Part shown: positions 14,021-32,098 of the stretch, in pieces
Layout: every line of letters begins with the position of its first letter
How positions within the stretch are numbered: the first letter of the stretch is position 1
Source of the DNA: Rufibacter radiotolerans
GTDB lineage: Bacteria > Bacteroidota > Bacteroidia > Cytophagales > Hymenobacteraceae
Direction: 5' to 3'
Length of the DNA stretch: 64,000 bases
NCBI RefSeq assembly: GCF_001078055.1
Contig: NZ_CP010777.1
Coordinates: forward strand, 3,005,001 to 3,069,000
Position numbers and translations under genes: made by a program
Notes under the pieces: generated by a model
Seen by the model: only the letters and a program-made list of their open reading frames with translations
What the model was told of the DNA's origin: nothing
The model's database searches: none

Positions 14021-14292
14021 ATCATCCCCCTACCCCCTTCAAAGGGGGACGCAGAAGAGGGCAATGCGTGCGAACAGGTCAAGCCCTGTCCCTACAGGGA
14101 ATGCGTGGGGAATACACCGGGAATGGTAGAGACAATGGCACCGCCTTGTCTTTTACGGATCAGGTGGCAATGCCGCCCGCTCGCAGGCCCTGCGAGCGTC
14201 TGTGCCAGCGGCATCTCCCTGTGTGCATCTGCTGGTGTAAACATCCCCCTTCGCACCCTCAAGGGGGGAGTCTGCGTTTAATTGGCGGTGAT

Positions 14293-14332
14293 GCGTTTTG
14301 AAGCTGTTTTCCTAAAAACGTACTTAAAACGC
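14293..14332. repeat. Class 1 double-word palindrome inside repeat module 1
   Basis: GCGTTTTGAAGCTGTTTTCC with inverse ending TTAAAACGC; central right word is AAAACG. Confidence 0.7.
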
Positions 14333-14370
14333 AAATCTTAAAACACGCATCTCCACGCTTTCTCCGATTT

Positions 14371-14499
14371 CCAGTCTTTACTCTGAGCGCCTCGCTTGTG
14401 GCCCTGCAACAGCTTTACCTAAGAGCAGATAGCAAAGCGGCCGCAAGGGCAGTGCGAGGGGGAAAGACGGGGCCCCGCGGCCGTGAGCGCTCGGAGGGA
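14371..14499 (+). ncRNA. Candidate structured RNA/repeat core, copy 1
   Basis: 129 nt almost identical to 22317-22444. Nested complementary arms: GAGCGC (14385-14390) with GCGCTC (14487-14492), CTCGC (14391-14395) with GCGAG (14454-14458), GCCCT (14401-14405) with AGGGC (14446-14450), GCTTT (14412-14416) with AAAGC (14434-14438), and ACGG (14467-14470) with CCGT (14481-14484). A one-base indel between copies argues against coding. The strand is not certain. Confidence 0.4.
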
Positions 14500-14654
14500 A
14501 CAAATGAAACGTAGAAGCATAAGGACTCAGGGAAGAAAGGACACTACGCTAGCTAAAGCGGAATAGGAAATACCTAAGCGAAAGCAAAAACACGCCAGCA
14601 AAGGCAGAAGGTGAAATACCGAAGACAAGCTCCCTCTTCCCCCTAAAAACAAAA

Positions 14655-21845: not shown

Positions 21846-22245
21846 GTGGAGTAGAGACGGAGATTGAGGGGTTATGGTTTTTGAAAGGCTCCGTTTGGAC
21901 GTGATCTGAAGGTATGCGTCACCCCCTACCCCCTTCAAAGGGGGACGAGAAAGAGGGCAATGCGTGCGGACAGGTCAAGCCCTGTCCCTACAGGGAAGGC
22001 GTGGGAAGGTTGTTTTGCCCCTTCACCGCAAGAGAACTTGTCTCTACAGAGGAAATGCATTGGGAATGGTAGAGACAATGGCACCGCCTTGTCTCTGAAG
22101 GTATCAGGTGGCAATACCGCTTGCTCGCAGCGCCCGCAGGTCCAGCGGCGTTCCGTGCCAACAGTTTCTCTATGCGTACACCTGCTGGGTTAACACCCCT
22201 CTTCGCTCCCCTCAAGGGGAGAGTCTGCGTTGAATGTGAGCTATT

Positions 22246-22287
22246 CTGTTTTGAGGCTGTTTTGAGAAAAACGTGCTTAAAACACAG
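22246..22287. repeat. Class 1 palindrome inside repeat module 2
   Basis: CTGTTTTGAGGCTGTTTTG then an imperfect inverse ending TTAAAACACAG. It occupies the same place in the module as the palindrome at 14293-14332, although the arms differ. Confidence 0.65.
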
Positions 22288-22316
22288 CATCGCAGCCTTC
22301 TACGCATTCCCCAATT

Positions 22317-22444
22317 CCAGTCTTTACTCTGAGCGCCTCGCTTGTGGCCCTGTAATAGCTTTACTAAGAGCAGATAGCAAAGCGGCCGCAAGGGCAGTGC
22401 GAGGGGGAAAGACGGGGCCCCGCGGCCGTGAGCGCTCGGAGGGA
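22317..22444 (+). ncRNA. Candidate structured RNA/repeat core, copy 2
   Basis: Matches 14371-14499 with only a few changes: two C-to-T changes (CTGCAACAGC to CTGTAATAGC) and one missing C (TTACCTAAG to TTACTAAG), all in loop regions of the proposed fold. All nested arms are kept. Confidence 0.4.
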
Positions 22445-22613
22445 GACCATGAAACAATCCAGCATTAGGACTCAGGAGACAACAGGCACTACGCTAGCAA
22501 AAAGCGGAATAGGCAATAAGTAAGGCCTCTGGCATCAATAGCCTATTCAAGGCAAACAATTAAACTCCTTATCTCAAATAAACCTCACATTCCAACATCG
22601 CCCCACCCATTTA

Positions 22614-25058: not shown

Positions 25059-25103
25059 ATTAGTTAAGAGGTGAAAACTAAGAGTTATGAGCTGAAAGCC
25101 GTC

Positions 25104-25144
25104 CCTCCCCTCTTTGTCATCCTGAAAGGACCTTGTGAGCGAAC
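25104..25144 (+). repeat. Inverted repeat, left copy (GTCATCCTGAAAGGACC)
   Basis: Contains TTGTCATCCTGAAAGGACC and TTGTGAGCGAAC. The right partner at 25678-25715 is the inverse, with about 33 of 36 bases matching. The pair brackets the AT-rich lipoprotein gene. Confidence 0.75.
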
Positions 25145-25240
25145 GAGAAAGGCAGAAGCTAAGAAAATGCATAATTACATTGCTTAAATGACAGGCATAT
25201 TTCATACAAGAGTCACGCTAAAGCTTTATAACATTTTATA

Positions 25241-25606
25241 ATGAAGTTATTTTTAATCGTAGTCTTGTCAATTTTAACTGCCTGTTCATCAGACAACGAC
25301 AAACTCGATTATCCTAAGAGAATAGAAGATGTTGTTAAAGCAGAATTATTTCGGCCTGATGAAAAGACGAATGGAGGGGTTGTAGAAATAAAGAAGCTTT
25401 CAGAGAGCGAAATAGTTGAATTATTAAATGCATTGAGAAAAGGCAAACCAGTAGGGCCTGTAAAATTCAAACCTGACTTCTTCATTATTCTTTCAACAAA
25501 AACCGATGGAACTAAGAAGCTGAAGGTAAATGGAAGAACGGTAAAAGGATTTCAAAATGACTTTGGCTATGAAATACCGGAGTTAGATTTTTTGAACAAC
25601 TTCTAA
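25241..25606 (+). CDS. Short AT-rich lipoprotein
   Basis: 121 residues. Lipoprotein signal MKLFLIVVLSILTACSS (Cys near 15), then a soluble part with KLDYPKRIEDVVK, SESEIVELLNALRKG and KPDFFIILSTKTDGTKKLKV. No known family. The codon use is far more AT-rich than the mutase genes on either side, and it is flanked by inverted repeats, which suggests it came by transfer. Confidence 0.75.
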   Translation: MKLFLIVVLSILTACSSDNDKLDYPKRIEDVVKAELFRPDEKTNGGVVEIKKLSESEIVELLNALRKGKPVGPVKFKPDFFIILSTKTDGTKKLKVNGRTVKGFQNDFGYEIPELDFLNNF

Positions 25607-25677
25607 ATGACAGAGGAAATATCAATAAAGCCAAGAAACATTATAATGAGCTTTTGTGCATAGCAAGCTAAATTACA

Positions 25678-25715
25678 GTTCGCCCACAAGGTCCTTTCTG
25701 GATGACAAGAGGGAG
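25678..25715 (-). repeat. Inverted repeat, right copy
   Basis: GTTCGCCCACAAGGTCCTTT then CTGGATGACAAGAGGGAG, the inverse of 25104-25144. About 530 bases separate the two. Confidence 0.75.
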
Positions 25716-25750
25716 AGCGAAACACATAATATAAGACAACAACCGCAGGC

Positions 25751-27921: not shown

Positions 27922-27939
27922 AACCGTCTGGGTTTTGCC

Positions 27940-27996
27940 TGGCGCGAGTCTTAAGACTCGTGACATGAGATGGGTGGAGTCTGAAGACTCCCGCCA
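27940..27996 (+). repeat. REP unit left of the RAYT gene
   Basis: Two perfect 16-base palindromes, CGAGTCTTAAGACTCG (27945-27960) and GGAGTCTGAAGACTCC (27976-27991), 15 bases apart, bounded by TGGCG/CGCCA. The inverse arrangement lies at 28675-28727. Confidence 0.85.
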
Positions 27997-28007
27997 GAAG
28001 TTAGATA

Positions 28008-28057
28008 AACCTCTGTTTTTGGCCTGTTTCCTAGAAAACAGGCCAAAAACAGAGGTT
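28008..28057. repeat. Class 1 palindrome, near perfect
   Basis: AACCTCTGTTTTTGGCCTGT and the inverse ending CCAAAAACAGAGGTT, followed by TTTTTTT within a few bases. It sits between mutB and the RAYT gene and probably ends the mutB message. Confidence 0.85.
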
Positions 28058-28090
28058 TGCTTTTTTTAGGCGCCAACGTATACTTTCGCC

Positions 28091-28642
28091 ATGAGCACTA
28101 AGTACAAAACCCATAACCAAGACGGGATTTACTTTATCAGCATAGCAACGGTTGAATGGGTAGATGTCTTCACAAGGCGGGAGTATTGTGAAATAATTGT
28201 GGACAGCCTCAGATATTGCATAGAACACAAAGGTTTGGTCCTGCACGCTTGGGTCATTATGCCTAACCACCATCACTTGATCGCTTCAAGTACAGATGAC
28301 AAACCACTAGCAGCCATTCTCAGGGACTTTAAGAAATTTACCGCTACTAAACTTTTAACGGCTATTCATGAAAACCCACAGGAAAGTAGAAAACGTTGGT
28401 TGCAATGGATTTTTGAAAGTAACGGACGACGTAACCCAAACAACACCCATCAGCAGTTTTGGCAACATAGCAATCATCCCATAGAACTAGATACCATTTT
28501 ATTAATGGGGCAGAAGCTGGGGTATTTGCATCAGAATCCGGTGGAAGCCGGCTTTGTGGAAGAAGCATCGCATTGGATTTATAGCAGCGCGGCAGATTAT
28601 GCGGGCGGTAAAGGTTGGTTGCCATTAGTTCTATTAGAATGA
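28091..28642 (+). CDS. REP-associated tyrosine transposase (RAYT)
   Basis: 183 residues of the Y1/HUH superfamily. Metal-binding HHH in VIMPNHHHLIASS (near 55-63) and a candidate catalytic Tyr in LGYLHQNPVEAGFV (near 142), followed by YSSAADYAGG. It cuts and joins single-stranded DNA at REP hairpins; the flanking inverted REP units at 27940-27996 and 28675-28727 are its likely substrates. GC content is lower than the neighbours. All key residues appear intact. Confidence 0.93.
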   Translation: MSTKYKTHNQDGIYFISIATVEWVDVFTRREYCEIIVDSLRYCIEHKGLVLHAWVIMPNHHHLIASSTDDKPLAAILRDFKKFTATKLLTAIHENPQESRKRWLQWIFESNGRRNPNNTHQQFWQHSNHPIELDTILLMGQKLGYLHQNPVEAGFVEEASHWIYSSAADYAGGKGWLPLVLLE

Positions 28643-28674
28643 CTCAACTAAATTAGAATTAGACGAAGGCAAAG

Positions 28675-28727
28675 GGAGTCTGGAGACTCCAACAATCCCA
28701 TGTCACGAGTCTGAAGACTCGCGCTAG
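28675..28727 (-). repeat. REP unit right of the RAYT gene
   Basis: GGAGTCTGGAGACTCC (28675-28690) and CGAGTCTGAAGACTCG (28706-28721), 15 bases apart, inverted relative to the left unit. The spacer AACAATCCCATGTCA is the inverse of the left spacer with few changes. Confidence 0.85.
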
Positions 28728-31790: not shown

Positions 31791-31866
31791 TGTAGGGGCA
31801 GGTCGCGACCTATCCGTAAGCATTGCCTTCTTTTTCGTCCCCCTTTGAAGGGGGTGGGGGATGACA
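31791..31866 (-). repeat. Module part A, inverted partial copy
   Basis: The inverse matches the first 75 bases of the composite module (CCCCCACCCCCTTCAAAGGG, GGCAATGC, then CAGGTC-like and CCCTACA). The middle of the copy reads GGTCGCGACC instead of GGTCAAGCCC. Confidence 0.65.
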
Positions 31867-32067: not shown

Positions 32068-32098
32068 TTATCCCCCTCCCCCCTTCAAAGGGGGACGG
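32068..32098 (+). repeat. Module part A, short copy
   Basis: TATCCCCCTCCCCCCTTCAA then AGGGGGACGG. It is in inverse orientation to 31791-31866, so the pair forms an inverted repeat around the REP-like unit. Confidence 0.6.

Follow-up and report, generated by a model that had tools for sequence, protein, structure and literature searches.

A folded, multi-copy intergenic repeat with an A-rich tail in Rufibacter radiotolerans and related Hymenobacteraceae

What kind of element is kept almost unchanged at two places in a genome while the DNA around it differs more? The question is raised by two segments of a 64-kb window, by which we mean the whole stretch of Rufibacter radiotolerans DNA that was analysed, numbered from its first letter. 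A sequence-only reading of the window had described the pair as a near-identical core with more divergent flanks, had drawn nested complementary arms with every change between the copies (two C-to-T and one missing C) in the proposed loops, and had left two options, a structured RNA and a small mobile element of which this would be the core, to be followed up by a covariance search of related genomes and a search for compensatory changes in the arms. In a global alignment, copy 1 (14371-14499, 129 nt) and copy 2 (22317-22444, 128 nt) do show only three differences, namely C>T at 14407, C>T at 14410 and the absence of C14418 from copy 2, every one of them between the P3 arms, in the apical loop region. 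The flanks diverge more, as had been described (about 88% over 14419-14557 and 86-94% in the upstream modules). These upstream modules, common to copies 1 and 2 on the + strand (14026-14340 and 21922-22290; repeat families D3, D5 and D1), are not constant parts of the family, since in other species, and ahead of other copies, they are missing or differ. Within the window, the CCCCTACCCCCTTCAAAGGGGG module is found at four places, two of them upstream of the repeat (14027-14048 and 21923-21944, before copies 1 and 2) and two without it (31839-31860 and 32073-32094).

Both segments are members of an unnamed multi-copy intergenic repeat family on the R. radiotolerans chromosome, the closed 4.82-Mb replicon that hosts the window. 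A search pattern of 21 nt, drawn from the 3' part of the segment, was found at 52 sites (24 forward and 28 reverse, with none for a control pattern). A covariance model based on 45 diverged copies likewise gave 52 matches in this chromosome, 51 of them at E <1e-14. The copies in this genome form two subfamilies, a main one and one with CCAGCCTTTCGTCTGAGCGCCTAGCACTCGACCCGGTGCCGC. Applied to related genomes, the covariance model located the family in 60 of 120 sampled Hymenobacteraceae genomes and in three of six genera: Rufibacter, in which all 16 genomes carry it, and Pontibacter and Adhaeribacter, in which many do. Pontibacter genomes differ in copy number, between none and 30 or more; some genomes hold few and decayed copies, and in those with one to three the copies are degenerate, for which reason the idea of a master copy in low-copy genomes was rejected. 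Copies in low-copy Pontibacter genomes (L264, L267, L269, L276, L284, L287, L289 and L290) are interrupted, at differing places, by about 22-25 nt of GC-rich sequence around GGGGTAGGGGCCCTC (or the reverse complement of it), which may be a separate kind of tiny insertion.

The sequence-only reading had known of no matching family, and none of the 4227 families of Rfam matched the repeat. No Rfam match at gathering threshold was obtained for the whole 64-kb window, and at a relaxed threshold nothing rose above chance for copy 1 or for a Rufibacter ruber variant, and thus a known RNA family was rejected. The repeat family is also absent from the plasmid and phage collections searched, and a phage or plasmid origin was likewise rejected; the lone IMG/VR match (L231) looks like chance and has no stem. 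The open literature that we searched contained no description of this repeat. The family is previously unnamed, and the kind to which it belongs, the structured intergenic repeat, is already known.

The head of the repeat, about 120 nt in length, folds into a long stem (P1-P2-P3) whose tip is variable, followed by a near-invariant GACGRGGCCYCGCGGCCGTGAGC segment. In copy 1, the structured head, made up of a conserved 5' lead-in, the stem P1-P4 and an invariant 3' segment, spans 14362-14488 on the + strand, according to CM R1 match G000:C1:3019370-3019487 and an alignment of 30 copies. P1 pairs 14374-14383 with 14459-14468, and nine of its ten pairs covary across 45 copies; P2 pairs 14387-14390 (GCGC) with 14452-14455, with GA at 14385-14386 beside it facing GA at 14456-14457; and P3, which also covaries and whose register is shifted in some Pontibacter copies, pairs 14393-14400 with 14442-14449. 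P1 and P3 contain one mismatch each in both copies of the window. The variable apical region (14404-14439), which contains every difference between the two copies, includes a small hairpin, P4, proposed from arm complementarity (14412-14416/14422-14426). The near-invariant segment GACGGGGCCCCGCGGCCGTGAGC at 14466-14488 is the part conserved furthest across genera. The head of copy 2 lies at 22309-22433, also on the + strand (CM R1 match G000:C1:3027316-3027432), with complementary arms at 22320-22329/22404-22413 (P1), 22333-22336/22397-22400 (P2) and 22339-22346/22387-22394 (P3). Nested arms, as proposed in the sequence-only reading, are present as P1, P2 and P3 in both copies, and as P4 in copy 1. 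The unit as a whole is asymmetric, with one stem over approximately the first 100 nt, a separate near-invariant 3' segment, and then the tail.

Since the folding energy of single sequences is unremarkable (z -1.3 and -2.6 for the two copies), the evidence for structure is comparative. Covariation was tested on a sequence-only MAFFT alignment of 45 diverged copies from three genera, using P1, P2 and P3 plus a two-pair candidate, P5. Among these copies, 88.8% of the paired cells can pair, against 72.7% after shuffling; 19 of 24 pairs show two-sided changes; and 160 cells are changed on both sides of a pair, against 65 in shuffled alignments. The covariation measure was 0.450, compared with 0.196 for shuffled alignments and at most 0.178 when the pairing was slid by 1-3 columns. 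None of 500 shuffles reached the observed value on any measure, a count that is not to be read as a probability because the copies are related by descent, a history that the slid controls retain. The P1 pairs switch freely, one of them being C-G in 21 copies and G-C in 20. A second alignment has, in its paired columns, 102 G-U and 7 A-C combinations, and the great excess of G-U identifies the + strand as the folding strand. Taken together, the comparative evidence shows that the fold of the head is real, that the + strand is the one that folds, and that the fold is under selection. The compensatory changes in the arms that the sequence-only reading had named as a check are thus strongly in evidence, and such compensatory evolution across three genera is unusually clear for an intergenic repeat.

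The head is followed by a tail that is variable in sequence, A-rich and T-poor over 150-200 nt. In copy 1 the non-coding tail occupies 14489-14650 on the + strand (AT skew 0.58), carries the motifs TGAAAC and CGC(C/T)AGC, and has no sharp 3' limit; in copy 2 it occupies 22434-22590 on the + strand (AT skew 0.36). In each of four Rufibacter species, the skew of A over T is 0.4-0.57 in the first 50 nt, fades by about 200-250 nt and is near zero by about 250 nt, and Pontibacter tails have the same bias with a shorter reach. TGAAAC-like motifs were found in the tails of 70% of 273 copies (4% when shuffled), and CGC(C/T)AGC motifs in 36% of copies (1% when shuffled). A small ORF after GGAGGGA..ATG was considered and rejected, as its frame is not kept: the recurrent ATG is followed by in-frame stops in many copies (six codons on in most copies of subfamily 2), and frame 0 is hardly more open than frame 2. 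No reading frame is conserved across copies; the sequence-only reading had remarked that the indel between copies 1 and 2 shifts any frame. Judged by these sequences, the repeat is non-coding and the recurrent ATG is not the start of a conserved frame. A sigma-70 scan gave nothing on the + strand, with a consensus that does not cover Bacteroidota promoters.

To describe the genomic positions, gene context was counted for 201 copies, with genes defined as ORFs of at least 130 aa. The gene upstream is co-oriented with the copy in 134 of the 201 (p 2.6e-6), the gene downstream has no orientation preference, convergent gaps outnumber divergent ones by 71 to 29, and there is no recurrent neighbour gene beyond orthologous sites. 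In one Rufibacter congener (G002), nine of 30 copies lie at sites also occupied in the R. radiotolerans genome, eight of these sites being supported by both flanking genes and one by one side. Orientation is the same at all nine, which indicates that part of the copies is inherited in place. The heads at these nine sites are still species-typed, and five of the nine rank among the eight closest R. radiotolerans copies, which leaves a weak trace of orthology. Three other congeners (G008, G009 and G015) have few shared sites, with a single shared position between G009 and G015 among 20 x 27 copies. Their shared-site copies are no closer to each other than random cross-species pairs, and mean core identity is 0.89-0.91 within species versus 0.84-0.87 between species.

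The two sites in the window were followed through the genus. Copy 1 lies between a peroxiredoxin gene and an Rrf2 gene, a site occupied in 4 of 16 congeners, all in the same orientation. Copy 2 has a DUF72 gene on one side and a methylmalonyl-CoA mutase gene on the other, and its site is occupied in 8 of 16, with the R. radiotolerans copy inverted relative to the other seven; the gap measures 516-898 bp where occupied and 102-322 bp where empty. Neither a target duplication nor a precise empty site was found in the copy 2 gap of the 16 congeners, which are too diverged for the junction to be placed. No terminal inverted repeats were seen by eye at the conserved edges, which are not sharp.

We think it probable that the copies, each with a folded head and an A-rich tail, are mobile: short, non-autonomous intergenic repeats that make up a new family in Rufibacter, Pontibacter and Adhaeribacter. 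This reading is based on the dispersal of the copies, their homogeneity within species and the turnover of their positions; the repeat is dispersed, multi-copy, intergenic and without coding capacity, as MITE-, bcr1- and ERIC-like repeats are. The two halves of the initial suggestion, structured RNA and mobile-element core, are not mutually exclusive, and both hold, the one through compensatory changes and the other through dispersal, homogeneity and positional turnover. An enzyme acting in trans would recognise the folded + strand, in the form of either RNA or single-stranded DNA, and would both spread the element and overwrite existing copies. Insertion would be easiest close to gene 3' ends, and recognition by the enzyme would be what keeps the fold under selection. 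Neither a transposase nor another gene was found next to the copies. A Y1 transposase is a possible mover that the neighbourhood does not support, as none of the Y1_Tnp matches listed adjoins a copy and the nearest among those listed is about 5 kb away. Y1 transposases are common also in genera without the repeat. Many-copy Pontibacter genomes mostly have a Y1 match and several repeat-free ones have none, a pattern that is uncontrolled for kinship and that we do not count as evidence.

The main rival to mobility is a multi-copy functional RNA kept uniform by gene conversion rather than spread by transposition, with a protein-bound head whose transcription would often start in the 3' region of the gene upstream, and with a tail whose role would be copy-specific. 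Strand-specific covariation with abundant G-U pairs would be expected of such an RNA, as would a tail that is strand-biased for 150-200 nt in each of the four sampled Rufibacter species, the sense orientation after genes and the positions conserved with orientation kept. However, most positions are not common to congeners, some Pontibacter genomes have no copies or only degenerate ones, and neighbour genes do not recur, and we consider this explanation a serious one that is nevertheless rather unlikely. A more specific RNA system, in which a protein-bound head present some 50 times carries copy-specific single-stranded tails as its variable functional part, with concerted evolution within species, strikes us as unlikely.

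It is also conceivable that the repeat serves at transcript ends, its stem and unstructured tail either stabilising the transcript from the 3' untranslated region or forming part of a Rho-type terminator there. The preference for the 3' side of genes, the excess of convergent gaps and the predominance of C over G in most Rufibacter tails would suit this function, but one third of the copies do not follow a co-oriented gene, the bias of C over G is absent from the first 100 nt of Pontibacter tails, and the near-invariant 23-nt segment would not be needed for termination alone; we regard it as quite improbable. The RNA-like folded head with its A-rich tail also brings to mind a SINE-type retro-element copied via RNA by a reverse transcriptase. 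That reading is very doubtful, since no RVT_1 match at E 1e-5 was found in the R. radiotolerans genome or in six other many-copy Rufibacter genomes, making reverse transcription unlikely.

Some further features of the window and of the genomes searched were recorded. A hairpin family CTGTTTTGAGGCTGTTTTCC..AAAACAGG..TTAAAACAG occurs between genes at 17 places in the window (for example, 4413, 14291, 14656 and 57390) and looks like a set of bidirectional terminators. At 25102-25720, inverted repeats of 43 nt surround a small lipoprotein-like ORF (25241-25606). Reverse transcriptase matches number 14 in the Pontibacter genome G112, where several form pairs about 2 kb apart; genomes G134, G110 and G156 each have a Y1 transposase match with a reverse transcriptase match about 1-2 kb away.

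The repeat offers a natural test of how folded repeats stay uniform within a genome despite shifting positions. It also matters for the annotation of the genomes that carry it, because mechanical ORF calls cross it. If transcribed, its roughly 50 copies would be among the most repeated RNA loci in these bacteria.

Several known systems invite comparison. The repeat resembles the structured RNA families of Rfam in its covariation-supported fold, with a match to none of the 4227. REPINs and REPs are hairpin-forming, non-autonomous, extragenic repeats thought to be moved in trans by a RAYT transposase (PMC3116915), and our repeat is like REPINs in its population behaviour. Unlike a REPIN, it does not consist of two inverted REP units in one hairpin, no RAYT lies beside a copy among the matches listed, and the presence of Y1 does not mark carriers across genera, and a REPIN/RAYT identity was rejected. 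The window does contain a RAYT-like Y1 transposase gene (28091-28642, within 27939-28727) between 54-nt inverted repeats with GAGTCTGAAGACTC-type palindromes; these inverted repeats are a REP-like family of its own, unrelated to the head-tail repeat. We have not assigned the repeat to bcr1, ERIC, REPIN or MITE, since it departs from the REPIN definition and neither the terminal repeats nor the target duplications that define MITEs were found. ERIC/NEMIS-type repeats are intergenic, fold into a long stem-loop and number tens to hundreds of copies (PMC2267715), and the Rufibacter repeat is likewise intergenic, stem-loop forming and present in many copies. In contrast to them, its stem is confined to about the first 100 nt, and the asymmetric stem is joined to a near-invariant segment and a single-stranded tail. 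Finally, bcr1 of the Bacillus cereus group is an intergenic repeat of about 150 nt with tens of copies, a predicted shared fold and MITE-like character, often found in untranslated regions (PMC3446304, PMC2267715). The Rufibacter repeat, compared with bcr1 by description and not by sequence, is likewise intergenic, present in tens of copies, endowed with a shared fold and MITE-like in behaviour, but it belongs to another phylum and is built as a folded head with an A-rich tail.
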